This document shows positions 1 to 53,740 of a stretch of 64,000 nucleotides of DNA, one piece after another. The notes beneath the pieces were generated by a model that did no database searches, was not told the origin of the DNA, and was given only the letters and a program-made list of their open reading frames with translations. Source of the DNA: Odiellus spinosus (Eukaryota; Arthropoda; Arachnida; Opiliones; Phalangiidae); contig CAWUCO010000094.1 in NCBI GenBank assembly GCA_963920705.1, positions 329,313 through 393,312 on the forward strand, read 5' to 3'. The position numbers and the translations under genes are program-made. Positions within the stretch are counted from its first letter, which is position 1; every line of letters starts with the position of its first letter.

Positions 1-893
1 TTTGGTCTTTCGAGTGGTCTTAATTTTGTCTAAATCGCTTAAAATTCAAAAGTTTTGTGTCCATTTGAATCCAATAATCTTGGATTTTTAAGCGTTTTTG
101 CTTAATTTTAACCAATTTTATATTTGTCACAATTTTGCAATTTAGACAAAACCAAAGTCATTCGAAAGAGCAATTAATGGACAGTCTAAATAATAAGAGT
201 TTTCAAAAATCCGTTGAAAAACAAGAAAAATATGGCCAATTCAAAAAACATCTAATATCAAAAAGCGAATTTTTAAAATCTGAAATTTGACTATTTTGAT
301 ATTGTATGATTTCTTGAATTGGCCATATTTTTCTTGTTTTTCAACGGATTTTTGAAAACTCTTATTATTTAGACTGTCCATTAATTGCTCTTTCGAATGA
401 CTTTGGTTTTGTCTAAATTGCAAAATTGTGACAAATATAAAATTGGTAAAAATTAAGCAAAAACGCTTAAAAATTCAAGATTATTGGATTCAAATGGACA
501 CAAAACTTTTGAATTTTAAGCGATTTAGACAAAATTAAGATAACTCGAAAGAGCAAATATTGGTCTATCTAAAAAACAAGAGTTTTGGAAAATCCGTTGA
601 AAAACATGGAAAATATGGACAATTCAAAAAACATCTAATATCAAAAAGCGAAATTTTAAAATCTGAAATTTGACTATTTTGATATTGTATGATTTTTTGA
701 ATTGGCCATATTTTTCTTGTTTTTCAACGGATTTTGCAAAACTATTGTTTTTTAGATAGACCAAAATTTGCTCTTTCGAGTGGTCTTAATTTTGTCTAAA
801 TCGCTTAAAAATCAAAAGTTTTGTGTCCATTTGAATCCAATAATCTTGGATTTTTAAGCGTTTTTGCTTTATTTTAACCAATTTTATATTTGT

Positions 894-3800
894 CACAGTT
901 TTTCAATTTAGACAAAACCAAAGTCATTCGAAAGAGCAATTAATGGACAGTTTAAATAATAAGAGTTTTCAAAAATCCGTTGAAAAACATGGAAAATATG
1001 GACAATTCAAAAAACATCTAATATCAAAAAGCGAATTTTGAAAATCTGATATTTGACTATTTTGATATTGTATGATTTCTTGAATTGGCCATATTTTTCT
1101 TGTTTTTCAACGGATTTTTGAAAACTCTTATTATTTAGACTGTCCATTAATTGCTCTTTCGAATGACTTTGGTTTTGTCTAAATTGCAAAATTGTGACAA
1201 ATATAAAATTGGTTAAAATTAAGCAAAAACGCTTAAAAATTCAAGATTATTGGATTCAAATGGACACAAAACTTTTGAATTTTAAGCGATTTAGACAAAA
1301 TTAAGATAACTCGAAAGAGCAAATATTGGTCTATCTAAAAAACAAGAGTTTTGGAAAATCCGTTGAAAAACATGGAAAATATGTACAATTCAAAAAACAT
1401 CTAATATCAAAAAGCGAATTTTTAAAATCTGAAATTTGACTATTTTGATATTGTATGATTTCTTGAATTGGCCATATTTTTCTTGTTTTTCAACGGATTT
1501 TTGAAAACTATTGTTTTTTAGATAGACCAAAATTTGGTCTTTCGAGTGGTCTTAATTTTGTCTAAATCGCTTAAAATTCAAAAGTTTTGTGTCCATTTGA
1601 ATCCAATAATCTTGGATTTTTAAGCGTTTTTGCTTAATTTTAACCAATTTTATATTTGTCACAATTTTGCAATTTAGACAAAACCAAAGTCATTCGAAAG
1701 AGCAATTAATGGACAGTTTAAATAATAAGAGTTTTCAAAAATCCGTTGAAAAACATGGAAAATATGGACAATTCAAAAAACATCTAATATCAAAAAGCGA
1801 ATTTTGAAAATCTGAAATTTGACTATTTTGATATTCTATGATTTCTTGAATTGGCCATATTTTTCTTGTTTTTCAACGGATTTTTGAAAACTCTTATTAT
1901 TTAGACTGTCCATTAATTGCTCTTTCGAATGACTTTGGTTTTGTCTAAATTGCAGAATTGTGACAAATATAAAATTGGTTAAAATTAAGCAAAAACGCTT
2001 AAAAATCCAAGATTATTGGATTCAAATGGACACAAAAACTTTTGATTTTTAAGCGATTTAGACAAAATTAAGACCACTCGAAAGAGCAAATATTGGTCTA
2101 TCTAAAAAACAATAGTTTTGGAAAATCCGTTGAAAAACAAGAAAAATATGGCCAATTCAAGAAATCATAGAATATCAAAATAGCCAAATTTCAGATTTTC
2201 AAAATTCGCTTTTTGATATTAGATGTTTTTTGAATTGTCCATATTTTCCATGTTTTTCAACGGATTTTCCAAAACTCTTGATTTTCAGATAGACCAATAT
2301 TTGCTCTTTCGAGTGGTCTTACTTTTGTCTAAATCGCTTAAAAATCAAAAGTTTTGTGTCCATTTGAATCCAATAATCTTGGATTTTTAAGCGTTTTTGC
2401 TTAATTTTAACCAATTTTATATTTGTCACAATTTTGCAATTTAGACAAAACCAAAGTCATTCGAAAGAGCAATTAATGGACAGTCTAAATAATAAGAGTT
2501 TTCAAAAATCCGTTGAAAAACAAGAAAAATATGGCCAATCCAAAAAACATCTAATATCAAAAAGCGAATTTTTAAAATCTGAAATTTGACTATTTTGATA
2601 TTGTATGATTTCTTGAATTGGCCATATTTTTCTTGTTTTTCAACGGATTTTTGAAAACTCTTATTATTTAGACTGTCCATTAATTGCTCTTTCGAATGAC
2701 TTTGGTTTTGTCTAAATTGCAAAATTGTGACAAATATAAAATTGGTTAAAATTAGCAAAAACGCTCAAAAATCCAAGATTATTGGATTCAAATGGACACA
2801 AAACTTTTGAATTTTAAGCGATTTAGACAAAATTAAGACCACTCGAAAGACCAAATTTTGGTCTATCTAAAAAACAATAGTTTTGGAAAATCCGTTGAAA
2901 AACAAGAAAAATATGGCCAATTCAAGAAATCATACAATATCAAAATAGTCAAATTTCAGATTTTCAAAATTCGCTTTTTGATATTAGATGTTTTTTGAAT
3001 TGTCCATATTTTCCATGTTTTTCAACGGATTTTTGAAAACTCTTATTATTTAAACTGTCCATTAATTGCTCTTTCGAATGACTTTGGTTTTGTCTAAATT
3101 GCAAAATTGTGACAAATATAAAATTGGTTAAAATTAAGCAAAAACGCTTAAAAATCCAAGATTATTGGATTCAAATGGACACAAAACTTTTGAATTTTAA
3201 GCGATTTAGACAAAATTAAGACCACTCGAAAGAGCAAATATTGGTCTATCTAAAAAACAATAGTTTTGGAAAATCCGTTGAAAACAAGAAAAATATGGCC
3301 AATTCAAGAAATCATACAATATCAAAATAGTCAAATTTCAGATTTTCAAAATTCGCTTTTTGATATTAGATGTTTTTGAATTGTCCATATTTTCTATGTT
3401 TTTCAACGGATTTTCCAAAACTCTTGTTTTTTAGATAGACCAATATTTGCTCTTTCGAGTGGTCTTAATTTTGTCTAAATCGCTTAAAAATCAAAAGTTT
3501 TGTGTCCATTTGAATCCAATAATCTTGGATTTTTAAGCGTTTTTGCTTTATTTTAACCAATTTTATATTTGTCACAATTTTGCAATTTAGACAAAACCAA
3601 AGTCATTCGAAAGAGCAATTAATGGACAGTCTAAATAATAAGAGTTTTCAAAAATCCGTTGAAAAACATGGAAAATATGGACAATTCCAGAAATCATACA
3701 ATATCAAAATAGTCAAATTTCAGATTTTAAAAATTCGCTATTTGATATTAGATGTTTTTTGAATTGTCCATATTTTCCATGTTTTTCAACGGATTTTCCA

Positions 3801-4337
3801 AAACTCTTGATTTTCAGATAGACCAATATTTGCTCTTTCGAGTGGTCTTAATTTTGTCTAAATCGCTTAAAAATCAAAAGTTTTGTGTCCATTTGAATCC
3901 TATAATCTTGGATTTTTAAGTGTTTTTGCTTTATTTTAACCAATTTTATATTTGTCACAATTTTGCAATTTAGACAAAACCAAAGTCATTCGAAAGAGCA
4001 ATTAATGGACAGTCTAAATAACAAGAGTTTTCAAAAATCCGTTGAAAAACAAGAAAAATATGGACAATTCAAGAAATCATACAATATCAAAATAGTCAAA
4101 TTTCAGATTTTAAAAATTCGCTTTTTGATATTAGATGTTTTTGAATTGTCCATATTTTCCATGTTTTTCAACGGATTTTCCAAAACTCTTGATTTTCAGA
4201 TAGACCAATATTTGCTCTTTCGAGTGGTCTTAATTTTGTCTAAATCGCTTAAAAATCAAAAGTTTTGTGTCCATTTGAATCCAATAATCTTGGATTTTTA
4301 AGCGTTTTTGCTTTATTTTAACCAATTTTATATTTGT
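894..4337. repeat. Higher-order repeat, 9-unit copy (3444 bp)
   Basis: Starts at the diagnostic linker variant CACAGTTTTTCAATTT (894), which recurs at 4338 and 8551. Its opening units (A-A', B-B', A-A', B+B') carry the same rare variants as the next copies, including AAGATAACTCG at 1303 against 4747, an offset of exactly 3444. The copy closes with two A+B' units. Confidence 0.85.
911..1179. repeat. Representative A...A' palindrome (polarity switch + to -)
   Basis: Both outer arms are type A: the left arm starts GACAAAACCAAAGTCATTCG and the right arm ends as its reverse complement at 1179. The outer arms are near-perfect inverted repeats of roughly 70 bp ending at the 18-bp boxes, with a '-' core between them. 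The linker to the left is in + polarity and the linker to the right in - polarity, so array direction reverses at the centre of the palindrome. Units of this class recur throughout the left array, for example near 140-400, 1685-1945 and 4360-4620. Confidence 0.92.
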
Positions 4338-7300
4338 CACAGTTTTTCAATTTAGACAAAACCAAAGTCATTCGAAAGAGCAATTAATGGACAGTTTAAA
4401 TAATAAGAGTTTTCAAAAATCCGTTGAAAAACATGGAAAATATGGACAATTCAAAAAACATCTAATATCAAAAAGCGAATTTTGAAAATCTGATATTTGA
4501 CTATTTTGATATTGTATGATTTCTTGAATTGGCCATATTTTTCTTGTTTTTCAACGGATTTTTGAAAACTCTTATTATTTAGACTGTCCATTAATTGCTC
4601 TTTCGAATGACTTTGGTTTTGTCTAAATTGCAAAATTGTGACAAATATAAAATTGGTTAAAATTAAGCAAAAACGCTTAAAAATTCAAGATTATTGGATT
4701 CAAATGGACACAAAACTTTTGAATTTTAAGCGATTTAGACAAAATTAAGATAACTCGAAAGAGCAAATATTGGTCTATCTAAAAAACAAGAGTTTTGGAA
4801 AATCCGTTGAAAAACATGGAAAATATGTACAATTCAAAAAACATCTAATATCAAAAAGCGAATTTTTAAAATCTGAAATTTGACTATTTTGATATTGTAT
4901 GATTTCTTGAATTGGCCATATTTTTCTTGTTTTTCAACGGATTTTTGAAAACTATTGTTTTTTAGATAGACCAAAATTTGGTCTTTCGAGTGGTCTTAAT
5001 TTTGTCTAAATCGCTTAAAATTCAAAAGTTTTGTGTCCATTTGAATCCAATAATCTTGGATTTTTAAGCGTTTTTGCTTAATTTTAACCAATTTTATATT
5101 TGTCACAATTTTGCAATTTAGACAAAACCAAAGTCATTCGAAAGAGCAATTAATGGACAGTTTAAATAATAAGAGTTTTCAAAAATCCGTTGAAAAACAT
5201 GGAAAATATGGACAATTCAAAAAACATCTAATATCAAAAAGCGAATTTTGAAAATCTGAAATTTGACTATTTTGATATTCTATGATTTCTTGAATTGGCC
5301 ATATTTTTCTTGTTTTTCAACGGATTTTTGAAAACTCTTATTATTTAGACTGTCCATTAATTGCTCTTTCGAATGACTTTGGTTTTGTCTAAATTGCAGA
5401 ATTGTGACAAATATAAAATTGGTTAAAATTAAGCAAAAACGCTTAAAAATCCAAGATTATTGGATTCAAATGGACACAAAAACTTTTGATTTTTAAGCGA
5501 TTTAGACAAAATTAAGACCACTCGAAAGAGCAAATATTGGTCTATCTAAAAAACAATAGTTTTGGAAAATCCGTTGAAAAACAAGAAAAATATGGCCAAT
5601 TCAAGAAATCATAGAATATCAAAATAGTCAAATTTCAGATTTTCAAAATTCGCTTTTTGATATTAGATGTTTTTTGAATTGTCCATATTTTCCATGTTTT
5701 TCAACGGATTTTCCAAAACTCTTGATTTTCAGATAGACCAATATTTGCTCTTTCGAGTGGTCTTAATTTTGTCTAAATCGCTTAAAATTCAAAAGTTTTG
5801 TGTCCATTTGAATCCAATAATCTTGGATTTTTAAGCGTTTTTGCTTAATTTTAACCAATTTTATATTTGTCACAATTTTGCAATTTAGACAAAACCAAAG
5901 TCATTCGAAAGAGCAATTAATGGACAGTCTAAATAATAAGAGTTTTCAAAAATCCGTTGAAAAACAAGAAAAATATGGCCAATCCAAAAAACATCTAATA
6001 TCAAAAAGCGAATTTTTAAAATCTGAAATTTGACTATTTTGATATTGTATGATTTCTTGAATTGGCCATATTTTTCTTGTTTTTCAACGGATTTTTGAAA
6101 ACTCTTATTATTTAGACTGTCCATTAATTGCTCTTTCGAATGACTTTGGTTTTGTCTAAATTGCAAAATTGTGACAAATATAAAATTGGTTAAAATTAAG
6201 CAAAAACGCTCAAAAATCCAAGATTATTGGATTCAAATGGACACAAAACTTTTGAATTTTAAGCGATTTAGACAAAATTAAGATAACTCGAAAGAGCAAA
6301 TATTGGTCTATCTAAAAAACAAGAGTTTTGGAAAATCCGTTGAAAAACATGGAAAATATGTACAATTCAAAAAACATCTAATATCAAAAAGCGAATTTTT
6401 AAAATCTGAAATTTGACTATTTTGATATTGTATGATTTCTTGAATTGGCCATATTTTTCTTGTTTTTCAACGGATTTTTGAAAACTATTGTTTTTTAGAT
6501 AGACCAAAATTTGGTCTTTCGAGTGGTCTTAATTTTGTCTAAATCGCTTAAAATTCAAAAGTTTTGTGTCCATTTGAATCCAATAATCTTGGATTTTTAA
6601 GCGTTTTTGCTTAATTTTAACCAATTTTATATTTGTCACAATTTTGCAATTTAGACAAAACCAAAGTCATTCGAAAGAGCAATTAATGGACAGTTTAAAT
6701 AATAAGAGTTTTCAAAAATCCGTTGAAAAACATGGAAAATATGGACAATTCAAAAAACATCTAATATCAAAAAGCGAATTTTGAAAATCTGAAATTTGAC
6801 TATTTTGATATTCTATGATTTCTTGAATTGGCCATATTTTTCTTGTTTTTCAACGGATTTTTGAAAACTCTTATTATTTAGACTGTCCATTAATTGCTCT
6901 TTCGAATGACTTTGGTTTTGTCTAAATTGCAGAATTGTGACAAATATAAAATTGGTTAAAATTAAGCAAAAACGCTTAAAAATCCAAGATTATTGGATTC
7001 AAATGGACACAAAAACTTTTGATTTTTAAGCGATTTAGAAAAAATTAAGACCACTCGAAAGAGCAAATATTGGTCTATCTAAAAAACAATAGTTTTGGAA
7101 AATCCGTTGAAAAACAAGAAAAATATGGCCAATTCAAGAAATCATAGAATATCAAAATAGTCAAATTTCAGATTTTCAAAATTCGCTTTTTGATATTAGA
7201 TGTTTTTTGAATTGTCCATATTTTCCATGTTTTTCAACGGATTTTCCAAAACTCTTGATTTTCAGATAGACCAATATTTGCTCTTTCGAGTGGTCTTACT

Positions 7301-10406: not shown

Positions 10407-10425
10407 AATCCAATAATCTTGGATT
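10407..10425. repeat. Linker dyad AATCCAA-TAATC-TTGGATT
   Basis: Most linkers carry a perfect 7-bp inverted repeat with a 5-base loop; this copy is typical. It is the second symmetry centre of each unit, the first being the middle of the core. The linker ends are also weakly symmetric (GTCTAAATCGCTT on one side, GCAATTTAGAC on the other). This supports an origin of the whole monomer as an inverted dimer. A few units carry substitutions in the dyad, such as TCTAGGATT near 11183 and CCTATAATC near 3900 and 8111. Confidence 0.85.
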
Positions 10426-10864
10426 TTTAAGCGTTTTTGCTTAATTTTAACCAATTTTATATTTGTCACAATTTTGCAATTTAGACAAAACCAAAGTCAT
10501 TCGAAAGAGCAATTAATGGACAGTTTAAATAATAAGAGTTTTCAAAAATCCGTTGAAAAACATGGAAAATATAGACAATTCAAAAAACATCTAATATCAA
10601 AAAGCGAATTTTGAAAATCTGAAATTTGACTATTTTGATATTGTATGATTTCTTGAATTGGCCATATTTTTCTTGTTTTTCAACGGATTTTCCAAAACTA
10701 TTGTTTTTTAGATAGACCAAAATTTGGTCTTTCGAGTGGTCTTAATTTTGTCTAAATCGCTTAAAATTCAAAAGTTTTGTGTCCATTGGAATCCAATAAT
10801 CTTGGATTTTTAAGCATTTTTGCTTAATTTTAACCAATTTTATATTTGTCACAATTTTGCAATT

Positions 10865-16800: not shown

Positions 16801-16999
16801 GTTTTTCAACGGATTTTCCAAAACTCTTGTTTTTTAGATAGACCAATATTTGCTCTTTCGAGTGGTCTTAATTTTGTCTAAATCGTTTAAAAATCAAAAG
16901 TTTTGTGTCCATTTGAATCCAATAATCTTGGATTTTTAAGCGTTTTTGCTTAATTTTAACCAATTTTATATTTGTCACAATTTTGCAATTTAGACAAAA

Positions 17000-18500
17000 C
17001 CAAAGTCATTCTAAAGAGCAATTAATGGACAGTCTAAATAATAAGAGTTTTCAAAAATCCGTTGAAAAACAAGAAAAATATGGCCAATTCAAGAAATCAT
17101 AGAATATCAAAATAGTCAAATTTCAGATTTTCAAAATTCGCTTTTTGATATTAGATGTTTTTTGAATTGTCCATATTTTCCATGTTTTTCAACGGATTTT
17201 CCAAAACTATTGTTTTTTAGATAGACCAAAATTTGGTCTTTCGAGTGGTCTTAATTTTGTCTAAATCGCTTAAAATTCAAAAGTTTTGTGTCCATTTGAA
17301 TCCAATAATCTTGGATTTTTAAGCGTTTTTGCTTAATTTTAACCAATTTTATATTTGTCACAATTTTGCAATTTAGACAAAACCAAAGTCATTCGAAAGA
17401 GCAATTAATGGACAGTCTAAATAATAAGAGTTTTCAAAAATCCGTTGAAAAACCAGAAAAATATGGCCAATTCAAGAAATCATAGAATATCAAAATAGTC
17501 AAATTTCAGATTTTCAAATTCGCTTTTTGATATTAGATGTTTTTTGAATTGTCCATATTTTCCATGTTTTTCAACGGATTTTCCAAAACTCTTGTTTTTT
17601 AGATAGACCAATATTTGCTCTTTCGAGTGGTCTTAATTTTGTCTAAATCGCTTAAAAATCAAAAGTTTTGTGTCCATTTGAATCCAATAATCTTGGATTT
17701 TTAAGCGTTTTTGCTTAATTTTAACCAATTTTATATTTGTCACAATTTTGCAATTTAGACAAAACCACAGTCATTCGAAAGAGCAATTAATGGACAGTCT
17801 AAATAATAAGAGTTTTCAAAAATCCGTTGAAAAACAAGAAAAATATGGCCAATTCAAGAAATCATAGAATATCAAAATAGTCAAATTTCAGATTTTCAAA
17901 ATTCGCTTTTTGATATTAGATGTTTTTTGAATTGTCCATATTTTCCATGTTTTTAGATAGACCAAAATTTGGTCTTTCGAGTGGTCTTAATTTTGTCTAA
18001 ATCGCTTAAAATTCAAAAGTTTTGTGTCCATTTGAATCCAATAATCTTGGATTTTTAAGCGTTTTTGCTTAATTTTAACCAATTTTATATTTGTCACAAT
18101 TTTGCAATTTAGACAAAACCAAAGTCATTCGAAAGAGCAATTAATGGACAGTCTAAATAATAAGAGTTTTCAAAAATCCGTTGAAAAACCAGAAAAATAT
18201 GGCCAATTCAAGAAATCATAGAATATCAAAATAGTCAAATTTCAGATTTTCAAAATTCGCTTTTTGATATTAGATGTTTTTTGAATTGTCCATATTTTCC
18301 ATGTTTTTCAACGGATTTTCCAAAACTCTTGTTTTTTAGATAGACCAATATTTGCTCTTTCGAGTGGTCTTAATTTTGTCTAAATCGTTTAAAAATCAAA
18401 AGTTTTGTGTCCATTTGAATCCAATAATCTTGGATTTTTAAGCGTTTTTGCTTAATTTTAACCAATTTTATATTTGTCACAATTTTGCAATTTAGACAAA
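17000..18500 (+). repeat. Satellite segment also present in inverted orientation
   Basis: A run of A+B' units with five rare variants in order: GTCATTCTAAAGAG (17005), GAAAAACCAGAAAA (17447) paired with a 1-bp deletion giving TTCAAATTCGC (near 17513), ACCACAGTCATTC (17764), a 29-bp arm deletion (17945), GAAAAACCAG without the 1-bp deletion (18183), and TAAATCGTTTAAAAATC (18382). The reverse complements of all of these occur in reversed order at 29540-31666. It is flanked by a B+B' unit on the left and an A+A' unit on the right. Confidence 0.85.
17945..17960 (+). other. 29-bp deletion junction in a B' arm, copy 1
   Basis: The arm jumps from CCATGTTTTT directly to AGATAG, losing 29 bp that include most of the 18-bp box and the inner end of B'. 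Read on the other strand, the lost piece lies between two AAAAACA direct repeats, one of which remains; this is the signature of replication slippage or microhomology-mediated deletion. The identical junction occurs at 19447 on the same strand and at 29977 and 30713 on the opposite strand. Confidence 0.85.
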
Positions 18501-19446
18501 ACCAAAGTCATTCGAAAGAGCAATTAATGGACAGTCTAAATAATAAGAGTTTTCAAAAATCCGTTGAAAAACAAGAAAAATATGGCCAATTCAAGAAATC
18601 ATAGAATATCAAAATAGTCAAATTTCAGATTTTCAAAATTCGCTTTTTGATATTAGATGTTTTTTGAATTGTCCATATTTTCCATGTTTTTCAACGGATT
18701 TTTGAAAACTCTTATTATTTAAACTGTCCATTAATTGCTCTTTCGAATGACTTTGGTTTTGTCTAAATTGCAAAATTGTGACAAATATAAAATTGGTTAA
18801 AATTAAGCAAAAACGCTTAAAAATCCAAGATTATTGGATTCAAATGGACACAAAACTTTTGAATTTTAAGCGATTTAGACAAAATTAAGACCACTCGAAA
18901 GACCAAATTTTAGTCTATCTAAAAAACAATACTTTTCAAAAATCCGTTGAAAAACATGGAAAATATGGACAATTCAAGAAATCATAGAATATCAAAATAG
19001 TCAAATTTCAGATTTTCAAATTCGCTTTTTGATATTAGATGTTTTTTGAATTGTCCATATTTTCCATGTTTTTCAACGGATTTTCCAAAACTCTTGTTTT
19101 TTAGATAGACCAATATTTGCTCTTTCGAGTGGTCTTAATTTTGTCTAAATCGCTTAAAAATCAAAAGTTTTGTGTCCATTTGAATCCAATAATCTTGGAT
19201 TTTTAAGCGTTTTTGCTTAATTTTAACCAATTTTATATTTGTCACAATTTTGCAATTTAGACAAAACCAAAGTCATTCGAAAGAGCAATTAATGGACAGT
19301 CTAAATAATAAGAGTTTTCAAAAATCCGTTGAAAAACAAGAAAAATATGGCCAATTCAAGAAATCATAGAATATCAAAATAGTCAAATTTCAGATTTTCA
19401 AAATTCGCTTTTTGATATTAGATGTTTTTTGAATTGTCCATATTTT

Positions 19447-19462
19447 CCATGTTTTTAGATAG
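19447..19462 (+). other. 29-bp deletion junction in a B' arm, copy 2
   Basis: Identical junction CCATGTTTTTAGATAG, exactly 1502 bp after the first copy, as expected if the higher-order repeat was duplicated after the deletion arose. Confidence 0.85.
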
Positions 19463-21239
19463 ACCAAAATTTGGTCTTTCGAGTGGTCTTAATTTTGTCT
19501 AAATCGCTTAAAATTCAAAAGTTTTGTGTCCATTTGAATCCAATAATCTTGGATTTTTAAGCGTTTTTGCTTAATTTTAACCAATTTTATATTTGTCACA
19601 ATTTTGCAATTTAGACAAAACCAAAGTCATTCGAAAGAGCAATTAATGGACAGTCTAAATAATAAGAGTTTTCAAAAATCCGTTGAAAAACCAGAAAAAT
19701 ATGGCCAATTCAAGAAATCATAGAATATCAAAATAGTCAAATTTCAGATTTTCAAAATTCGCTTTTTGATATTAGATGTTTTTTGAATTGTCCATATTTT
19801 CCATGTTTTTCAACGGATTTTCCAAAGCTCTTGTTTTTTAGATAGACCAATATTTGCTCTTTCGAGTGGTCTTAATTTTGTCTAAATCGTTTAAAAATCA
19901 AAAGTTTTGTGTCCATTTGAATCCAATAATCTTGGATTTTTAAGCGTTTTTGCTTAATTTTAACCAATTTTATATTTGTCACAATTTTGCAATTTAGACA
20001 AAACCAAAGTCATTCGAAAGAGCAATTAATGGACAGTCTAAATAATAAGAGTTTTCAAAAATCCGTTGAAAAACAAGAAAAATATGGCCAATTCAAGAAA
20101 TCATAGAATATCAAAATAGTCAAATTTCAGATTTTCAAAATTCGCTTTTTGATATTAGATGTTTTTTGAATTGTCCATATTTTCCATGTTTTTCAACGGA
20201 TTTTTGAAAACTCTTATTATTTAAACTGTCCATTAATTGCTCTTTCGAATGACTTTGGTTTTGTCTAAATTGCAAAATTGTGACAAATATAAAATTGGTT
20301 AAAATTAAGCAAAAACGCTTAAAAATCCAAGATTATTGGATTCAAATGGACACAAAACTTTTGAATTTTAAGCGATTTAGACAAAATTAAGACCACTCGA
20401 AAGACCAAATTTTAGTCTATCTAAAAAACAATACTTTTCAAAAATCCGTTGAAAAACATGGAAAATATGGACAATTCAAGAAATCATAGAATATCAAAAT
20501 AGTCAAATTTCAGAATTTCAAAATTCGCTTTTTGATATTAGATGTTTTTTGAATTGTCCATATTTTCCATGTTTTTCAACGGATTTTCCAAAACTTTTGT
20601 TTTTTAGATAGACCAATATTTGCTCTTTCGAGTGGTCTTAATTTTGTCTAAATCGCTTAAAAATCAAAAGTTTTGTGTCCATTTGAATCCAATAATCTTG
20701 GATTTTTAAGCGTTTTGCTTAATTTTAACCAATTTTATATTTGTCACAATTTTGCAATTTAGACAAAACCAAAGTCATTCGAAAGAGCAATTAATGGACA
20801 GTCTAAAAAATAAGAGTTTTCAAAAATCCGTTGAAAAACAAGAAAAATATGGCCAATTCAAGAAATCATAGAATATCAAAATAGTCAAATTTCAGATTTT
20901 CAAAATTCGCTTTTTGATATTAGATGTTTTTTGAATTGTCCAAATTTTCCATGTTTTTCAATGGATTTTCCAAAACTCTTGTTTTTTAGATAGACCAATA
21001 TTTGCTCTTTCGAGTGGTCTTATTTTGTCTAAATCGCTTAAAAATCAAAAGTTTTGTGTCCATTTGAATCATATAATCTTGGATTTTTAAGCGTTTTTGT
21101 TTAATTTTAACCAATTTTATATTTGTCACAATTTTGCAATTTAGACAAAACCAAAGTCATTCGAAAGAGCAATTAATGGACAGTCTAAATAATAAGAGTT
21201 TTCAAAAATCCGTTGAAAAACAAGAAAAATATGGCCAAT

Positions 21240-24194: not shown

Positions 24195-24299
24195 TTGCAA
24201 TTTAGACAAAACCAAAGTCATTCGAAAGAGCAATTAATGGAAGTCTAAATAATAAGAGTTTTCAAAAATCCGTTGAAAAACAAGAAAAATATGGCCAAT

Positions 24300-29100: not shown

Positions 29101-29950
29101 CCAATAATCTTGGATTTTTAAGCGTTTTTGCTTAATTTTAACCAATTTTATATTTGTCACAATTTTGCAATTTAGACAAAACCAAAGTCATTCGAAAGAG
29201 CAATTAATGGACAGTCTAAATAATAAGAGTTTTCAAAAATCCGTTGAAAATCAAGAAAATATGGCCAATTCAAGAAATCATAGAATATCAAAATAGTCAA
29301 ATTTCAGATTTTCAAAATTCGCTTTTTGATATTAGATGTTTTTTGAATTGTCCATATTTTCCATGTTTTTCAACGGATTTTTGAAAACTCTTATTATTTA
29401 AACTGTCCATTAATTGCTCTTTCGAATGACTTTGGTTTTGTCTAAATTGCAAAATTGTGACAAATATAAAATTGGTTAAAATTAAGCAAAAACGCTTAAA
29501 AATCCAAGATTATTGGATTCAAATGGACACAAAACTTTTGATTTTTAAACGATTTAGACAAAATTAAGACCACTCGAAAGAGCAAATATTGGTCTATCTA
29601 AAAAACAAGAGTTTTGGAAAATCCGTTGAAAAACATGGAAAATATGGACAATTCAAAAAACATCTAATATCAAAAAGCGAATTTTGAAAATCTGAAATTT
29701 GACTATTTTGATATTCTATGATTTCTTGAATTGGCCATATTTTTCTGGTTTTTCAACGGATTTTTGAAAACTCTTATTATTTAGACTGTCCATTAATTGC
29801 TCTTTCGAATGACTTTGGTTTTGTCTAAATTGCAAAATTGTGACAAATATAAAATTGGTTAAAATTAAGCAAAAACGCTTAAAAATCCAAGATTATTGGA
29901 TTCAAATGGACACAAAACTTTTGAATTTTAAGCGATTTAGACAAAATTAA
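26130..29950. repeat. Pentamer higher-order repeat, two copies (about 1912 bp)
   Basis: Five units, B+B', A+A', B+B', A+A', B-A', repeat at a 1912-bp offset (GACCATATTTGC at 26347 and 28259; TGCGGTC at 26911 and 28823). The palindromic units return to the starting polarity twice and the last unit keeps polarity, so the block is neutral overall only together with its neighbours. Each copy has private substitutions, such as TTAGACGTTTTTG near 28567. Confidence 0.82.
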
Positions 29951-29976
29951 GACCACTCGAAAGACCAAATTTTGGT

Positions 29977-29992
29977 CTATCTAAAAACATGG
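29977..29992 (-). other. 29-bp deletion junction in a B arm, inverted copy 1
   Basis: CTATCTAAAAACATGG: the stretch between the two AAAAACA repeats is gone. This is the exact reverse complement of the junction at 17945, in a unit that also shares the ACCACAGTC variant. Common descent of an inverted segment is therefore more likely than two independent deletions. Confidence 0.85.
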
Positions 29993-30712
29993 AAAATATG
30001 GACAATTCAAAAAACATCTAATATCAAAAAGCGAATTTTGAAAATCTGAAATTTGACTATTTTGATATTCTATGATTTCTTGAATTGGCCATATTTTTCT
30101 TGTTTTTCAACGGATTTTTGAAAACTCTTATTATTTAGACTGTCCATTAATTGCTCTTTCGAATGACTGTGGTTTTGTCTAAATTGCAAAATTGTGACAA
30201 ATATAAAATTGGTTAAAATTAAGCAAAAACGCTTAAAAATCCAAGATTATTGGATTCAAATGGACACAAAACTTTTGATTTTTAAGCGATTTAGACAAAA
30301 TTAAGACCTCTCGAAAGAGCAAATATTGGTCTATCTAAAAAACAAGAGTTTTGGAAAATCCGTTGAAAAACATGGAAAATATGGACAATTCAAAAAACAT
30401 CTAATATCAAAAAGCGAATTTGAAAATCTGAAATTTGACTATTTTGATATTCTATGATTTCTTGAATTGGCCATATTTTTCTGGTTTTTCAACGGATTTT
30501 TGAAAACTCTTATTATTTAGACTGTCCATTAATTGCTCTTTCGAATGACTTTGGTTTTGTCTAAATTGCAAAATTGTGACAAATATAAAATTGGTTAAAA
30601 TTAAGCAAAAACGCTTAAAAATCCAAGATTATTGGATTCAAATGGACACAAAACTTTTGAATTTTAAGCGATTTAGACAAAATTAAGACCACTCGAAAGA
30701 CCAAATTTTGGT

Positions 30713-30728
30713 CTATCTAAAAACATGG
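30713..30728 (-). other. 29-bp deletion junction in a B arm, inverted copy 2
   Basis: Same junction 736 bp further on, part of the duplicated dimer. The preceding unit in each dimer also has a 1-bp loss giving GCGAATTTGAAAATC (30414 and 31148), confirming a local tandem duplication. Confidence 0.85.
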
Positions 30729-33694
30729 AAAATATGGACAATTCAAAAAACATCTAATATCAAAAAGCGAATTTTGAAAATCTGAAATTTGACTATTTTG
30801 ATATTCTATGATTTCTTGAATTGGCCATATTTTTCTTGTTTTTCAACGGATTTTTGATAACTCTTATTATTTAGACTGTCCATTAATTGCTCTTTCGAAT
30901 GACTGTGGTTTTGTCTAAATTGCAAAATTGTGACAAATATAAAATTGGTTAAAATTAAGCAAAAACGCTTAAAAATCCAAGATTATTGGATTCAAATGGA
31001 CACAAAACTTTTGATTTTTAAGCGATTTAGACAAAATTAAGACCACTCGAAAGAGCAAATATTGGTCTATCTAAAAAAAGAGTTTTGGAAAATCCGTTGA
31101 AAAACATGGAAAATATGGACAATTCAAAAAACATCTAATATCAAAAAGCGAATTTGAAAATCTGAAATTTGACTATTTTGATATTCTATGATTTCTTGAA
31201 TTGGCCATATTTTTCTGGTTTTTCAACGGATTTTTGAAAACTCTTATTATTTAGACTGTCCATTAATTGCTCTTTCGAATGACTTTGGTTTTGTCTAAAT
31301 TGCAAAATTGTGACAAATATAAAATTGGTTAAAATTAAGCAAAAACGCTTAAAAATCCAAGATTATTGGATTCAAATGGACACAAAACTTTTGAATTTTA
31401 AGCGATTTAGACAAAATTAAGACCACTCGAAAGACCAAATTTTGGTCTATCTAAAAAACAATAGTTTTGGAAAATCCGTTGAAAAACATGGAAAATATGG
31501 ACAATTCAAAAAACATCTAATATCAAAAAGCGAATTTTGAAAATCTGAAATTTGACTATTTTGATATTCTATGATTTCTTGAATTGGCCATATTTTTCTT
31601 GTTTTTCAACGGATTTTTGAAAACTCTTATTATTTAGACTGTCCATTAATTGCTCTTTAGAATGACTTTGGTTTTGTCTAAATTGCAAAATTGTGACAAA
31701 TATAAAATTGGTTAAAATTAAGCAAAAACGCTTAAAAATCCAAGATTATTGGATTCAAATGGACACAAAACTTTCGAATTTTAAGCGATTTAGACAAAAT
31801 TAAGACCACTCGAAAGACCAAATTTTGGTCTATCTAAAAAACAATAGTTTTGGAAAATCCGTTGAAAAACAAGAAAAATATGGCCAATTCAAGAAATCAT
31901 ACAATATCAAAATAGTCAAATTTCAGATTTTCAAAATTCGCTTTTTGATATTAGATGTTTTTTGAATTGTCCATATTTTCCATGTTTTTCAACGGATTTT
32001 CCAAAACTCTTGTTTTTTAGATAGACCATATTTGCTCTTTCGAGTGGTCTTAATTTTGTCTAAATCGCTTAAAATTCAAAAGTTTTGTGTCCATTTGAAT
32101 CCAATAATCTTGGATTTTTAAGCGTTTTTGCTTAATTTTAACCAATTTTATATTTGTCACAATTTTGCAATTTAGACAAAACCAAAGTCATTCGAAAGAG
32201 CAATTAATGGACAGTCTAAATAATAAGAGTTTTCAAAAATCCGTTGAAAAACAAGAAAAATATGGCCAATTCAAGAAATCATAGAATATCAAAATAGTCA
32301 AATTTCAGATTTTCAAAATTCGCTTTTTGATATTAGATGTTTTTGAATTGTCCATTTTTTCCATGTTTTTCAACGGATTTTTGAAAACTCTTATTATTTA
32401 AACTGTCGATTAATTGCTCTTTCGAATGACTTTGGTTTTGTCTAAATTGCAAAATTGTGACAAATATAAAATTGGTTAAAATTAAGCAAAAACGCTTAAA
32501 AATCCAAGATTATTGGATTCAAATGGACACAAAACTTTTGAATTTTAAGCGATTGAGACAAAATTAAGACCACTCGAAAGACCAAATTGCGGTCTATCTA
32601 AAAAACAATAGTTTTCAAAAATCCGTTGAAAAACATGGAAAATATGGACAATTCAAGAAATCATAGAATATCAAAATAGTCAAATTTCAGATTTTCAAAA
32701 TTCGCTTTTTGATATTAGATGTTTTTTGAATTGTCCATATTTTCCATGATTTACAACGGATTTTCCAAAACTCTTGTTTTTTAGATAGACCAATATTTGC
32801 TCTTTCGAGTGGTCTTAATTTTGTCTAAATCGCTTAAAAATCAAAAGTTTTGTGTCCATTTGAATCCAATAATCTTGGATTTTTAAGCGTTTTTGCTTAA
32901 TTTTAACCAATTTTATATTTGTCACAATTTTGCAATTTAGACAAAACCAAAGTCATTCGAAAGAGCAATTAATGGACAGTCTAAATAATAAGAGTTTTCA
33001 AAAATCCGTTGAAAATCAAGAAAATATGGCCAATTCAAGAAATCATAGAATATCAAAATAGTCAAATTTCAGATTTTCAAAATTCGCTTTTTGATATTAG
33101 ATGTTTTTTGAATTGTCCATATTTTCCATGTTTTTCAACGGATTTTTGAAAACTCTTATTATTTAAACTGTCCATTAATTGCTCTTTCGAATGACTTTGG
33201 TTTTGTCTAAATTGCAAAATTGTGACAAATATAAAATTGGTTAAAATTAAGCAAAAACGCTTAAAAATCCAAGATTATTGGATTCAAATGGACACAAAAC
33301 TTTTGAATTTTAAGCGATTTAGACAAAATTAAGACCACTCGAAAGACCAAATTTTGGTCTATCTAAAAAACAATAGTTTTCAAAAATCCGTTGAAAAACA
33401 AGAAAAATATGGCCAATTCAACAAATCATACAATATCAAAATAGTCAAATTTCAGATTTTCAAAATTCGCTTTTTGATATTAGATGTTTTTTGAATTGTC
33501 CATATTTTCCATGTTTTTCAACGGATTTTCCAAAACTATTGTTTTTTAGATAGACCAAAATTTGGTCTTTCGAGTGGTCTTAATTTTGTCTAAATCGCTT
33601 AAAATTCAAAAGTTTTGTGTCCATTTGAATCCAATAATCTTGGATTTTTAAGCGTTTTTGCTTAATTTTAACCAATTTTATATTTGTCACAATT

Positions 33695-40500: not shown

Positions 40501-43150
40501 ATATAAAATTGGTTAAAATTAAGCAAAAACGCTTAAAAATCCAAGATTATTGGATTCAAATGGACACAAAACTTTTGATTTTTAAGCGATTTAGACAAAA
40601 TTAAGACCACTCGAAAGAGCAAATATTGGTCTATCTGAAAATCAAGAGTTTTGGAAAATCCGTTGAAAAACATGGAAAATATGGACAATTCAAAAAACAT
40701 CTAATATCAAAAAGCGAATTTTGAAAATCTGAAATTTGACTATTTTGATATTCTATGATTTCTTGAATTGGCCATATTTTTCTTGTTTTTCAACGGATTT
40801 TCCAAAACTATTGTTTTTTAGATAGACCAAAATTTGGTCTTTCGAGTGGTCTTAATTTTGTCTAAATCGCTTAAAATTCAAAAGTTTTGTGTCCATTTGA
40901 ATCCAATAATATTGGATTTTTAAGCGTTTTTGCTTAATTTTAACCAATTTTATATTTGTCACAATTTTGCAATTTAGACAAAACCAAAGTCATTCGAAAG
41001 AGCAATTAATGGACAGTTTAAATAATAAGAGTTTTCAAAAATCCGTTGAAAAACATGGAAAATATGGACAATTCAAAAAACATCTAATATCAAAAAGCGA
41101 ATTTTGAAAATCTGAAATTTGACTATTTTGATATTGTATGATTTCTTGAATTGGCCATATTTTTCTTGTTTTTCAACGGATTTTCCAAAACTATTGTTTT
41201 TTAGATAGACCAAAATTTGGTCTTTCGAGTGGTCTTAATTTTGTCTAAATCGCTTAAAATTCAAAAGTTTTGTGTCCATTTGAATCCAATAATCTTGGAT
41301 TTTTAAGCGTTTTTGCTTAATTTTAACCAATTTTATATTTGTCACAATTTTGCAATTTAGACAAAACCAAAGTCATTCGAAAGAGCAATTAATGGACAGT
41401 TTAAATAATAAGAGTTTTCAAAAATCCGTTGAAAAACATGGAAAATATGGACAATTCAAAAAACATCTAATATCAAAAAGCGAATTTTGAAAATCTGAAA
41501 TTTGACTATTTTGATATTCTATGATTTCTTGAATTGGCCATATTTTTCTTGTTTTTCAACGGATTTTTGAAAACTCTTATTATTTAGACTGTCCATTAAT
41601 TGCTCTTTCGAATGACTTTGGTTTTGTCTAAATTGCAAAATTGTGATAAATATAAAATTGGTTAAAATTAAGCAAAAACGCTTAAAAATCCAAGATTATT
41701 GGATTCAATTGGACACAAAACTTTTGAATTTTAAGCGATTTAGACAAAATTAAGACCACTCGAAAGACCAAATTTTGGTCTATCTAAAAAACAATAGTTT
41801 TGGAAAATCCGTTGAAAAACAAGAAAAATATGGCCAATTCAAGAAATCATACAATATCAAAAAAGTCAAATTTCAGATTTTAAAAATTCGCTTTTTGATA
41901 TTAGATGTTTTTTGAATTGTCCATATTTTCCATGTTTTTCAACGGATTTTCCAAAACTCTTGTTTTTTAGATAGACCAAAATTTGGTCTTTCGAGTGGTC
42001 TTAATTTTGTCTAAATCGCTTAAAATTCAAAAGTTTTGTGTCCATTTGAATCCAATAATCTTGGATTTTTAAGCGTTTTTGCTTAATTTTAACCAATTTT
42101 ATATTTGTCACAATTTTGCAATTTAGACAAAACCAAAGTCATTCGAAAGAGCAATTAATGGACAGTTTAAATAATAAGAGTTTTCAAAAATCCGTTGAAA
42201 AACATGGAAAATATGGACAATTCAAAAAACATCTAATATCAAAAAGCGAATTTTGAAAATCTGAAATTTGACTATTTTGATATTGTATGATTTCTTGAAT
42301 TGGCCATATTTTTCTTGTTTTTCAACGGATTTTCCAAAACTATTGTTTTTTAGATAGACCAAAATTTGGTCTTTCGAGTTGTCTTAATTTTGTCTAAATC
42401 GCTTAAAATTCAAAAGTTTTGTGTCCATTTGAATCCAATAATTTGGATTTTTAAGCGTTTTTGCTTAATTTTAACCAATTTTATATTTGTCACAATTTTG
42501 CAATTTAGACAAAACCAAAGTCATTCGAAAGAGCAATTAATGGACAGTCTAAATAATAAGAGTTTTCCAAAATCCGTTGAAAAACAAGAAAAATATGGCC
42601 AATTCAAAAAACATCTAATATCAAAAAGCGAATTTTGAAAATCTGAAATTTGACTATTTTGATATTGTATGATTTCTTGAATTGGCCATATTTTTCTTGT
42701 TTTTCAACGGATTTTTGAAAACTCTTATTATTTAGACTGTCCATTAATTGCTCTTTCGAATGACTTTGGTTTTGTCTAAATTGCAAAATTGTGACAAATA
42801 TAAAATTGGTTAAAATTAAGCAAAAACGCTTAAAAATCCAAGATTATTGGATTCAAATGGACACAAAACTTTTGAATTTTAAGCGATTTAGACAAAATTA
42901 AGACCACTCGAAAGACCAAATTTTGGTCTATCTAAAAAACAATAGTTTTGGAAAATCCGTTGAAAAACAAGAAAAATATGGCCAATTCAAGAAATCATAC
43001 AATATCAAAATAGTCAAATTTCAGATTTTAAAAATTCGCTTTTTGATATTAGATGTTTTTTGAATTGTCCATATTTTCCATGTTTTTCAACGGATTTTCC
43101 AAAACTCTTGTTTTTTAGATAGACCAATATTTGCTCTTTCGAGTGGTCTT
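37523..43150. repeat. Mixed-polarity satellite block
   Basis: States in order: A+B', A+A', B+A', B+B', A+A', B-A', B+B', A+A', B-B', A-B', A-A', B+B', A-B', A-A', B+B'. The TCTGAAAATCAAGAG arm variant appears near 39486 and 40634. No clear higher-order period was seen. The block ends at a rearranged junction near 43154. Confidence 0.75.
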
Positions 43151-43156
43151 AATTGG

Positions 43157-43357
43157 TCCGTTGAAAAACAAGAAAAATATGGCCAATTCAAGAAATCATA
43201 CAATATCAAAATAGTCAAATTTCAGATTTTAAAAATTCGCTTTTTGATATTAGATGTTTTTTGAATTGTCCATATTTTCCATGTTTTTCAACGGATTTTC
43301 CAAAACTCTTGTTTTTTAGATAGACCAATATTTGCTCTTTCGAGTGGTCTTAATTTT
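43157..43357 (+). repeat. 201-bp partial-unit duplication with out-of-phase seam
   Basis: The B' arm ending GTGGTCTTAATT does not continue into its linker. At about 43154 it jumps to GGTCCGTTGAAAAACAAG, inside a left box, and then repeats the core and B' arm of the preceding unit at an offset of 201 bp (TCCGTTG at 42956 and 43157). This is the one clear place in the left array where the 383-bp phase is broken by about half a unit. Two extra G bases at the seam fit end joining better than equal exchange. Confidence 0.85.
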
Positions 43358-46300: not shown

Positions 46301-49300
46301 CTTTTTGATATTAGATGTTTTTTGAATTGGCCATATTTTTCTTGTTTTTCAACGGATTTTTGAAAACTCTTATTATTTAGACTGTCCATTAATTGCTCTT
46401 TCGAATGACTTTGGTTTTGTCTAAATTGCAAAATTGTGACAAATATAAAATTGGTTAAAATTAATTAAAAACGCTTAAAAATCCAAGATTATTGGATTCA
46501 AATGGACACAAAACTTTTGATTTTTAAGCGATTTAGACAAAATTAGGACCACTCGAAAGAGCAAATATTGGTCTATCTGAAAATCAAGAGTTTTGGAAAA
46601 TCCGTTGAAAAACATGGAAAATATGGACAATTCAAAAAACATCTAATATCAAAAAGCGAATTTTGAAAATCTGAGATTTGACTATTTTGATATTCTATGA
46701 TTTCTTGAATTGGATATATTTTTCTTGTTTTTCAACGGATTTTTGAAAACCTTATTATTTAGACTGTCCATTAATTGCTCTTTCGAATGACTTTGGTTTT
46801 GTCTAAATTGCAAAATTGTGACAAATATAAAATTGGTTAAAATTAAGCAAAAACGCTTAAAAATCCAAGATTATTGGATTCAAATGGACACAAAACTTTT
46901 GATTTTTAAGCGATTTAGACAAAATTAAGATCACTCGAAAGAGCAAATATTGGTCTATCTAAAAAACAAGAGTTTTGGAAAATCCGTTGAAAAACATGGA
47001 AAATATGGACAATTCAAAAAACATCTAATATCAAAAAGCGAATTTTGAAAATCTGAAATTTGACTATTTTGATATTGTATGATTTCTTGAATTGGCCATA
47101 TTTTTCTTGTTTTTCAACGGATTTTTGAAAACTATTGTTTTTTAGATAGACCAAAATTTGGTCTTTCGAGTGGTCTTAATTTTGTCTAAATCGCTTAAAA
47201 TTCAAAAGTTTTATGTCCATTTGAATCCAATAATCTTGGATTTTTAAGCGTTTTTGCTTAATTTTAACCAATTTTATATTTGTCACAATTTTGCAATTTA
47301 GACAAAACCAAAGTCATTCGAAAGAGCAATTAATGGACAGTCTAAATAATAAGAGTTTTCAAAAATCCGTTGAAAAACAAGAAAAATATGGCCAATTCAA
47401 GAAATCATACAATATCAAAATGGTCAAATTTCAGATTTTAAAAATTCGCTTTTTGATATTAGATGTTTTTTGAATTGGCCATATTTTTCTTGTTTTTCAA
47501 CGGATTTTTGAAAACTCTTATTATTTAGACTGTCCATTAATTTCTCTTTCGAATGACTTTGGTTTTGTCTAAATTGCAAAATTGTGACAAATATAAAATT
47601 GGTTAAAATTAATTAAAAACGCTTAAAAATCCAAGATTATTGAATTCAAATGGACACAAAACTTTTGAATTTTAAGCGATTTAGACAAAATTAAGACCAC
47701 TCGAAAGAGCAAATATTGGTCTATCTGAAAATCAAGAGTTTTGGAAAATCCGTTGAAAAACACGGAAAATATGGACAATTCAAAAAACATCTAATATCAA
47801 AAAGCGAATTTTGAAAATCTGAAATTTGACTATTTTGATATTCTATGATTTCTTGAATTGGATATATTTTTCTTGTTTTTCAACGGATTTTTGAAAACTC
47901 TTATTATTTAGACTGTCCATTAATTGCTCTTTCGAATGACTTTGGTTTTGTCTAAATTGCAAAATTGTGACAAATATAAAATTGGTTAAAATTAAGCAAA
48001 AACGCTTAAAAATCCAAGATTATTGGATTCAAAGGGACACAAAACTTTTGAATTTTAAGCGATTTAGACAAAATTAAGACCAAAATTTGGTCTATCTAAA
48101 AAACAATAGTTTTGGAAAATCCGTTGAAAAACAAGAAAAATATGGCCAATTCAAGAAATCATAGAATATCAAAATAGTCAAATTTCAGATTTTCAAAATT
48201 CGCTTTTTGATAATAGATGTTTTTTGAATTGTCCATATTTTCCATGTTTTTCAACGGATTTTCCAAAACTCTTGATTTTCAGATAGACCAATATTTGCTC
48301 TTTCGAGTGGTCTTAATTTTGTCTAAATCGCTTAAAAAGCAAAAGTTTTGTGTCCATTTGAATCCAATAATCTTGGATTTTTAAGCGTTTTTGCTTAATT
48401 TTAACCAATTTTATATTTGTCACAGTTTTGCAATTTAGACAAAACCAAAGTCATTCGAAAGAGCAATTAATGGACAGTCTAAATAATAAGAGTTTTCAAA
48501 AATCCGTTGAAAAACAAGAAAAATATGGCCAATTCAAAAAACATCTAATATCAAAAAGCGAATTTTTAAAATCTGAAATTTGACTATTTTGATATTGTAT
48601 GATTTCTTGAATTGGCCATATTTTTTTGTTTTTCAACGGATTTTTGAAAATTCTTATTATTTAGACTGTCCATTAATTGCTCTTTCGAATGACTTTGGTG
48701 TTGTCTAAATTGCAAAATTGTGACAAATATAAAATTGGTTAAAATTAAGCAAAAACGCTTAAAAATCCAAGATTATTGGATTCAAATGGACACAAAACTT
48801 TTGATTTTTAAGCGATTTAGACAAAATTAAGACCACTCGAAAGAGCAAATATTGGTCTATCTAAAAAACAAGAGTTTTGGAAAATCCGTTGAAAAACATG
48901 GAAAATATGGACAATTCAAAAACATCTAATATCAAAAAGCGAATTTTTAAAATCTGAAATTTGACTATCTTGATATTGTATGATTTTTTGAATTGGCCAT
49001 ATTTTTCTTGTTTTTCAACGGATTTTCCAAAACTATTGTTTTTTAGATAGACCAAAATTTGGTCTTTCGAGTGGTCTTAATTTTGTCTAAATCGCTTAAA
49101 ATTCAAAAGTTTTGTGTCCATTTGAATCCAATAATCTTGGATTTTTAAGCGTTTTTGCTTAATTTTAACCAATTTTATATTTGTCACAATTTTGCAATTT
49201 AGACAAAACCAAAGTCATTCGAAAGAGCAATTAATGGACAGTCTAAATAATAAGAGTTTTCAAAAATCCGTTGAAAAACAAGAAAAATATGGCCAATTCA

Positions 49301-50956
49301 AGAAATCATAGAATATCAAAATAGTCAAATTTCAGATTTTCAAAATTCGCTTTTTGATATTAGATGTTTTTTGAATTGTCCATATTTTCCATGTTTTTCA
49401 ACGGATTTTTGAAAACTCTTATTATTTAAACTGTCCATTAATTGCTCTTTCGAATGACTTTGGTTTTGTCTAAATTGCAAAATTGTGACAAATATAAAAT
49501 TGGTTAAAATAAAGCAAAAACGCTTAAAAATCCAAGATTATTGGATTCAAATGGACACAAAACTTTTGATTTTTAAGCGATTTAGACAAAATTAAGACCA
49601 CTCGAAAGAGCAAATATTGGTCTATCTAAAAAACAAGAGTTTTGGAAAATCCGTTGAAAAACATGGAAAATATGGACAATTCAAAAAACATCTAATAACA
49701 AAAAGCGAATTTTTAAAATCTGAAATTTGACTATTTTGATATTGTATGATTTCTTGAATTGGCCATATTTTTCTTGTTTTTCAACGGATTTTCCAAAACT
49801 ATTGTTTTTTAGATAGACCAAAATATGGTCTTTCGAGTGGTCTTAATTTTGTCTAAATCGCTTAAAATTCAAAAGTTTTGTGTCCATTTGAATCCAATAA
49901 TCTTGGATTTTTAAGCGTTTTTGCTTAATTTTAACCAATTTTATATTTGTCACAATTTTGCAATTTAGACAAAACCAAAGTCAGTCGAAGGAGCAATTAA
50001 TGGACAGTCTAAATAATAAGAGTTTTCAAAAATCCGTTGAAAAACAAGAAAAATATGGCCAATTCAAGAAATCATAGAATATCAAAATAGTCAAATTTTA
50101 GATTTTTAAAATTCGCTTTTTGATATTAGATGTTTTTTGAATTGTCCATATTTTCCATGTTTTTCAACGGATTTTCCAAAACTCTTGTTTTTTAGATAGA
50201 CCAATATTTGCTCTTTCGAGTGGTCTTAATTTAGTCTAAATCGCTTAAAATTCAAAAGTTTTGTGTCCATTTGAATCCAATAATCTTGGATTTTTAAGCG
50301 TTTTTGCTTAATTTTAACCAATTTTATATTTATCACAATTTTGCAATTTAGACAAAACCAAAGTCATTCGAAAGAGCAATTAATGGACAGTTTAAATAAT
50401 AAGAGTTTTCAAAAATCCGTTGAAAAACATGGAAAATATGGACAATTCAAAAAACATCTAATATCAAAAAGCGAATTTTGAAAATCTGAAATTTGACTAT
50501 TTTGATATTCTATGATTTCTTGAATTGGCCATATTTTTCTTGTTTTTCAACGGATTTTTGAAAACTCTTATTATTTAGACTGTCCATTAATTGCTCTTTC
50601 GAATGACTTTGGTTTTGTCTAAATTGCAAAATTGTGACAAATATAAAATTGGTTAAAATTAAGCAAAAACGCTTAAAAGTCCAAGATTATTGGATTCAAA
50701 TGAACACAAAACTTTTGAATTTTAAGCGATTTAGACAAAATTAAGACCACTCGAAAGACCAAATTTTGGTCTATCTAAAAAACAATAGTTTTGGAAAATC
50801 CGTTGAAAAACAAGAAAAATATGGCCAATTCAAGAAATCATACAATATCAAAATAGTCAAATTTCAGATTTTAAAAATTCGCTTTTTGATATTAGATGTT
50901 TTTTGAATTGTCCATATTTTCCATGTTTTTCAACGGATTTTTGAAAACTTATTATT
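43358..50956. repeat. Mixed-polarity satellite block up to the insertion
   Basis: States after the seam: A-B', A+A', B-A', B-A', B-B', A+A', B-B', A+A', B-A', B-B', A+A', B-A', B+B', A-A', B-B', A+A', B-B', A+B', A-A', then a B+ unit cut by the insertion. Long-range copying is visible: AATTAATTAAAAACG near 44164, 46461 and 47607; GGATATATTT near 44799, 46713 and 47857; the loss in GAAAACCTTATT near 44832 and 46745; TTTTATGTCC near 45295 and 47209. The first pair is 2296 bp apart and the later pairs about 1913, so the second copy of a six-unit block lost one unit. The B unit near 48080 has also lost part of its outer arm. Confidence 0.78.
50953..50956. repeat. Candidate 4-bp target-site duplication TATT (left copy)
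   Basis: TATT at 50953-50956 and again at 55367-55370, where the intact satellite has it once. This fits a 4-bp target-site duplication. Because the site is simple AT sequence, a 2-bp TA duplication or chance overlap cannot be excluded. Confidence 0.5.
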
Positions 50957-51293: not shown

Positions 51294-51514
51294 TAATGTT
51301 ATTCTATGGGATTTGGTTTTTTTGAAAGTGGCTTACCTTTCAGATTTATTTTGCAATACTTCCGGATATTTTTCAGACTTGGATTTTCCGTGTGGTATGA
51401 ATTAAGTTTCGAGCTTTATTTTAAGACTAATTTCATAATTTTACACCGATTAGTTGGCCCACAAACTATTCATGAAAACGGAGGGAACAACAAGGCGGAG
51501 AAATAGATTCGCCA

Positions 51515-53737: not shown

Positions 53738-53740
53738 GAC

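Follow-up and report, generated by a model that had tools for sequence, protein, structure and literature searches.

Four half-unit tiles in near-random order in a satellite of Odiellus spinosus, with a probable role for segmental inversion

The window analyzed here is the whole 64,000-nucleotide stretch that closes contig CAWUCO010000094.1 of Odiellus spinosus (positions 329,313 to 393,312 of the 393,312-bp contig, called C104 below; the window end is the contig end), and most of it is a satellite array in which two alternating modules, a core and a linker, each occur in both orientations. We conclude that the array probably consists of four old half-unit tiles, whose random order is maintained by segmental inversions between full-length modules of opposite orientation together with unequal exchange. 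The order of module orientations is close to one random bit per module. Tile-specific variants span the short boxes that separate core from linker, and module ends combine nearly freely across module centers. A preliminary description of this DNA had noticed the changing orientations and explained them by a core that flips without its arms; the observation was right and unusual, but the mechanism was mostly wrong, as cores travel with their adjoining arms.

Modules, half-units, and their order

The modules are bounded by an 18-bp box, AAAATCCGTTGAAAAACA, which alternates in orientation along the array (+ - + -). A core is the interval from a + box to a - box, and a linker is the interval from a - box to a + box. 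The reference modules lie near the start of the window, where a box at 206..223 (+) is followed by the reference core at 224..334 (+; c end left, d end right), an inverted box at 335..352 (-), and the reference linker at 353..588 (+; A' end left, B end right). With boxes called at 3 errors or fewer, the array in the window has 307, of which 281 are perfect. Their 306 intervals comprise 151 cores (109 to 111 bp), 149 linkers (224 to 237 bp, mostly 236 bp), and 6 irregular intervals, of which four are 336-bp deletion alleles, one is a partial duplication, and one contains a 4.4-kb insertion. The 264 kb of array on C104 contains 1,355 boxes and 1,354 intervals (671 cores, 668 linkers, and 15 irregular).

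The A' and B arms named in the preliminary description are the two ends of a single linker, so the “eight states” that it reported are the orientations of a linker, a core, and a linker. All eight are indeed present among the 142 complete units of the window, at 5 to 32 occurrences each (B-B' 32, A-A' 27, A+B' 26, A+A' 17, B+A' 13, B+B' 12, A-B' 10, and B-A' 5). All eight of the positions cited as examples proved correct once the core sign was exchanged, since core + here corresponds to core - there. Core orientation and arm type, which were to be compared for independence, are independent by count, and linkers invert as freely as cores.

Both modules are imperfect palindromes. The reference core is 81% identical to its own reverse complement (200 shuffles, mean 56% and maximum 66%), and the reference linker is 67% identical to its own (200 shuffles, mean 54% and maximum 60%). 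The unit of ∼383 bp is therefore two inverted halves of ∼190 bp, which makes this a dyad-symmetric satellite. In each half, one linker end (A or B) is connected through a box to one core end (c or d); core centers always join c to d, and linker centers always join A to B. The four half types are about equally common, both in the window (Ac 78, Bd 77, Bc 72, and Ad 68) and over the 264 kb (Bc 338, Ac 331, Bd 329, and Ad 325), and 10-kb stretches of four other contigs each contain all of them (Ac and Bd together, 86 of 198). When folded in silico as single-stranded DNA, the A-core-A' stretch at 905..1190 (+) is predicted to form one long hairpin of -118.5 kcal/mol (z score, -27), with 0 of 200 shuffles as strong.

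A first count had pointed to a specially conserved box. That count was inflated by indel shifts in the flanks, and the idea was dropped after alignment, when the box was lower than every flanking 18-bp window in only one of the four tile types (0, 14, 15, and 27 of 45 windows were lower). The CENP-B box is 17 bp long with an essential 3' CGGG part; the 18-bp box here, as read by eye, lacks CGGG. The 14-base heart of the box also matched as text in a paper on pigeonpea wilt and simple-sequence-repeat (SSR) markers, a match judged from the listing to be due to chance.

Orientation order has little memory. Predicting the orientation of a module costs 1.0 bit without context and 0.99, 0.945, and 0.88 bits when three, five, and eleven modules are known. 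Near-identical runs of at least 6 modules number 141 direct and 22 inverted; direct duplicates thus exist but leave most of the order unexplained. Maximal matches of at least 16 modules in the orientation string number 54 direct (longest, 28) and 17 inverted (longest, 23), and the 8 listed of 20 random strings gave 1 to 6 direct (longest, 16 to 20) and 1 to 5 inverted (longest, 16 to 22) matches. By this comparison, direct duplication is clearly above chance and inverted matching only modestly so. Mirror domains of the macro-dyad kind were considered and rejected, as the longest inverted match of 23 modules compares with 22 in one of those 8 random strings. Likewise, at ∼1 bit per module, the array is not organized as multikilobase uniform subarrays meeting at inversion points; same-direction linker runs reach 82 modules once, and the next longest is 18.

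The array fills positions 1..50956 of the window in mixed orientation, is interrupted once by the 4.4-kb insertion, and resumes at 55367..64000 as mostly direct 383-bp units (core + with linker -) up to the contig end. Upstream of the window it continues for at least 200 kb, so that it occupies the final 264 kb of the 393-kb contig with this insertion as the sole interruption in the stretch read. It recurs on other contigs of the assembly (GCA_963920705.1, 443 Mb in 286 contigs), with 253 genome matches, on ten contigs among the matches listed. Long tandem noncoding arrays in several genomic places identify it as satellite DNA. An 801-bp query found no copy in the plasmid collection searched, and a 24-mer of the satellite had no match in the genome contig collection searched.

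Linkage across boxes and module centers

If cores alone flipped, the variant in an arm would be independent of the core end that it touches; linkage was observed instead. On C104, a variant in the A arm, 24 bp beyond the box, differs between Ac tiles (T 220, C 107) and Ad tiles (C 306, T 9), with 642 of 656 A tiles scored and 14 unscored. A variant in the B arm, 10 bp beyond the box, likewise differs between Bc tiles (G 269, T 39) and Bd tiles (T 277, G 12), with 597 of 667 B tiles scored and 70 unscored, and additional B-arm markers lie as far out as 84 bp. Arm markers at these distances (24 bp for A, 10 to 84 bp for B) thus follow the core end, contrary to the idea of a core that turns between its boxes and leaves its arms behind.

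The association across the box is strong, with a phi of 0.672 for A (reached by 0 of 602 circular shifts) and 0.833 for B (0 of 557). Across core centers phi is 0.071 (86 of 612 shifts reach it), and across linker centers it is -0.014 (429 of 615). The 1,094 distinct contexts among 1,323 give the same result. Arm markers agree with the outermost core bases in 620 of 638 A tiles and 537 of 590 B tiles; with 18 and 53 box-discordant tiles, respectively, rare box-proximal switches remain. The four other contigs are consistent with this, as 68 of 85 A tiles and 92 of 93 B tiles that could be scored show the same assignment (20 of 198 could not be scored). A 31-kb stretch (C104:244321-275543) has its 82 consecutive linkers in one direction and its cores mixed (38 and 43), and there the A-arm marker matches the core end in 81 of 82 cases; for the B-arm marker, 57 of the 63 cases that could be scored match, and 18 could not be scored. 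The outcome named beforehand as fatal to the flipping core, that cores track arms as fixed types, is thus largely what we see, although as four half-unit types rather than two units.

Closely related loci were compared by selecting pairs with at least 2 near-identical modules on each side and examining the middle module. Its orientation agreed in 585 of 587 pairs and was flipped in 2, both of them cores; 65 of the 585 unflipped pairs stood in an inverted frame and 520 in a direct one. The better of the two flipped candidates (C104:248786 versus 252999, with flanks of 4 and 6 modules) also has a changed right-hand arm marker, and it therefore resembles a conversion tract rather than a box-to-box inversion.

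It had been proposed to test whether orientation changes cluster at the 18-bp boxes; the switch points lie mostly in the linker ahead of the box. Among pairs that share three near-identical modules up to a flipped core, 146 of 167 (A) and 187 of 258 (B) already show a different arm marker ahead of the box; when the core is not flipped, the figures are 35 of 520 (A) and 98 of 427 (B). These pairs overlap and are not independent; the 21 (A) and 71 (B) pairs left over set a limit to the fraction of switches located at the box or close to it.

Deletion alleles record an inversion at close range. Four 336-bp alleles that have lost one box lie within 13 kb, two on the + strand (17837..18172, junction 17942; 19339-19674, junction 19444) and two on the - strand (29765..30100, junction 29974; 30501-30836, junction 30710), and one junction sequence is common to all four. 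A further region (C104:138481-149437) has eight 157-bp gaps from + box to + box in 11 kb, another locally amplified deletion allele. Among 31-mers present in two copies in the 264-kb array, the opposite-orientation shares in six distance bins from <1 kb to >31 kb are 16%, 15%, 11%, 2%, 34%, and 52% (55/345, 297/1,971, 117/1,079, 10/521, 62/182, and 648/1,258). The share dips to 2% at 7 to 15 kb and is ∼50% past 31 kb.

Origin of the mixed order

In the explanation that we favor, the heritable pieces would be half-unit tiles of four kinds (Ac, Ad, Bc, and Bd), each of which extends across one box. Oppositely oriented copies of the same full-length module would recombine, by intrachromatid homologous exchange or conversion, and invert the intervening segment with breakpoints inside modules. 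Unequal exchange between like-oriented modules would duplicate and delete blocks. With both modules present in both orientations, inversions would repeatedly re-create the mixed order and oppose homogenization. Exchange located at the box, arm against arm or c against d, may have generated the four tiles long ago and would now be rare.

We simulated these processes under strict array-size control, with event rates expressed relative to unequal crossing-over attempts. Unequal crossing-over alone made the array uniform in both of 2 runs. When inversions with breakpoints at module centers were added at a rate of 2, near-random order survived in all 6 runs (0.79 to 1.08 bits), each of which had 0 to 2 flipped pairs. 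Core-only flips at boxes gave 0.37 to 0.75 bit, concordances of 0.46 to 0.80, and 9 to 24% flipped pairs, and left linkers uniform; box flips of both modules gave up to ∼1 bit, concordances of 0.41 to 0.57, and 14 to 39% flipped pairs. Inversions at a rate of 1 combined with core flips at 0.005 came near the data (concordance, 0.72 to 0.96; 0 to 9 flipped pairs), and with core flips at 0.02 concordance was 0.49 to 0.73. Within these models, the simulations fit segmental inversion plus unequal exchange and not frequent box flips.

Several observations weigh against this explanation. Both of the 2 runs with inversions at 0.1 of the attempt rate ended in a uniform array; at a rate of 0.5 mixed order was lost in 3 of 6 runs and survived near random in the other 3; and four runs at a rate of 1 gave ∼0.9 bit once, 0.4 to 0.7 bit twice, and 0 once. 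The tile concordance of 1.0 in the center-breakpoint model holds by construction and is not a result, and the observed inverted share (65 to 520) falls at the low end of the six runs at a rate of 2 (0.10 to 0.99). Linkage between A and c is incomplete, as 107 of 327 scored Ac tiles bear the Ad-type arm marker, and the association across module centers, albeit weak, is not zero (single columns, V up to 0.24). In the 31-kb stretch of uniform linkers the association extends across the linker too, so that this stretch behaves like two unit types in one register. Finally, we infer inversions from a single assembly, and nearly the same pattern would result from gene conversion with an inverted donor.

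One alternative, which we consider unlikely, is that ordinary unequal crossing-over and conversion among four preexisting tiles, with almost no ongoing inversion, maintain an order that is a relic. Direct near-identical runs do outnumber inverted ones, local higher-order repeats are visible, and crossing-over between like-oriented modules already reassorts arms and cores. Against these points, crossing-over alone homogenized both simulated arrays, where the real order holds ∼1 bit per module; a single deletion allele was inverted within 13 kb; and 352 of 2,316 two-copy 31-mers less than ∼3 kb apart are in opposite orientations. Of the preliminary statement that unequal crossing-over is insufficient and inversion required, what stands is the need for orientation-changing events, given the uniform simulated arrays and the deletion allele in both orientations.

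The original proposal, that cores flip in place between inverted 18-bp boxes by cruciform resolution or arm recombination, independently of the arms, now appears quite improbable. It accounts for boxes that are inverted and nearly invariant (281 of 307 perfect), for the strong A-core-A' hairpin in silico, and for the presence of all eight states, and two candidate events and the box-discordant tiles are what it would leave behind. It is opposed by the strong linkage across boxes, by arms that follow cores in all but one case of the uniform-linker stretch, by switch points outside the box, and by the altered arm marker of its better candidate. Simulated flips predict 9 to 39% flipped pairs and concordances of 0.41 to 0.80, compared with the 2 of 587 pairs observed, and core-only flips would keep linkers uniform. 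Moreover, the box is no less mutable than some neighboring 18-bp windows in three of the four tile types. Across-box linkage and so few in-place flips mean that the core does not behave as a box-bounded invertible segment with unchanged flanks; rare events of this type may occur.

An assembly artifact would be a natural suspicion for a highly repetitive array at a contig end but is very improbable: the same four tile haplotypes in mixed order lie inside four other contigs, one of 24.9 Mb, and orientation changes with tile-consistent markers occur every few hundred bases, far below long-read length. A programmed, shufflon-like switch with a site-specific recombinase acting at the 18-bp boxes, suggested by short inverted boxes around segments found both ways round, is hardly credible for a noncoding satellite of hundreds of kilobases in which segments are not exchanged at the boxes and in which the six open reading frames of at least 90 amino acids in the window are five in the repeat and one at the insertion edge, no protein-family search having been made.

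Building on segmental inversion with unequal exchange, we tentatively suggest that this may be a class of satellite in which inversion between near-palindromic modules keeps higher-order repeats from ever becoming established. Inversion would be about as frequent as unequal exchange, order would be maximally random, and the units would be four domino-like half-repeats; box-bounded flips of single cores may also occur, at most about once per two hundred exchange attempts.

An exact 201-bp tandem duplication (42956..43355, +) has a junction at 43146 that is unique in the 264 kb and thus marks a very recent event, out of the 383-bp register. The nonsatellite insertion (50957..55366) lies within an A' arm and contains tandem repeats of 91 and 100 bp. 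At 53756-55368, inverted arms (363 bp at 98% and 76 bp perfect) with 36-bp repeats resemble a foldback or miniature inverted-repeat transposable element (MITE)-like element. Elsewhere in the assembly, contig C17 has several COX1-like stretches with internal TGA/TAG, probably mitochondrial DNA transferred to the nucleus; the COX1 of the mitochondrial contig itself, translated with the invertebrate code, is arthropod-like.

Relation to known satellites

Satellite arrays are usually explained by homogenizing unequal exchange, and the orientation string described here would preserve a history of inversions within the array itself. With markers on every tile, rates of inversion, crossover, and box flipping can be read from one assembly. 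If the explanation holds across several animals, inversion could be measured directly against unequal exchange in heterochromatin, and such arrays would serve to test the idea that long satellite palindromes extrude and resolve as cruciforms.

Shufflons are invertible DNA switches in which segments lie between short inverted boxes. The array resembles them in having box-flanked segments in both orientations and differs in that exchange is off the boxes and the array is noncoding; no recombinase was found, and no family search was made. Human alpha satellite is a higher-order-repeat satellite, and local higher-order blocks from unequal exchange are a shared feature, but here subtypes follow one another almost at random for 264 kb, and units occur in both orientations.

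A search of the open PubMed Central (PMC) literature for satellites with random or both orientations gave no like case by title or abstract, which is no proof of absence in print. Among the literature compared, the closest published systems are the dyad-symmetric Tribolium satellites, with long uniform subarrays (PMC13081366). In TmSat1 and TmSat2 of Tribolium madens and related macro-dyad satellites, one-orientation subarrays of several kilobases meet at conserved inversion sites (PMC13081366). They share with the present array dyad symmetry in the repeat, both orientations, and strong predicted hairpins. In the present array, by contrast, orientation switches at about every second module, without long mirror domains beyond 23 modules. 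The satellites of Tribolium brevicornis (1,061 bp) and Trichogramma brassicae (385 bp with 80-bp inverted repeats), as cited there, are likewise units of largely inverted halves, by description and not by sequence, and 385 bp is close to 383 bp; the passage mentions no scrambled half orientation of the type seen here (PMC13081366). We regard the scrambled satellite of O. spinosus as a variant of the dyad-symmetric satellites.

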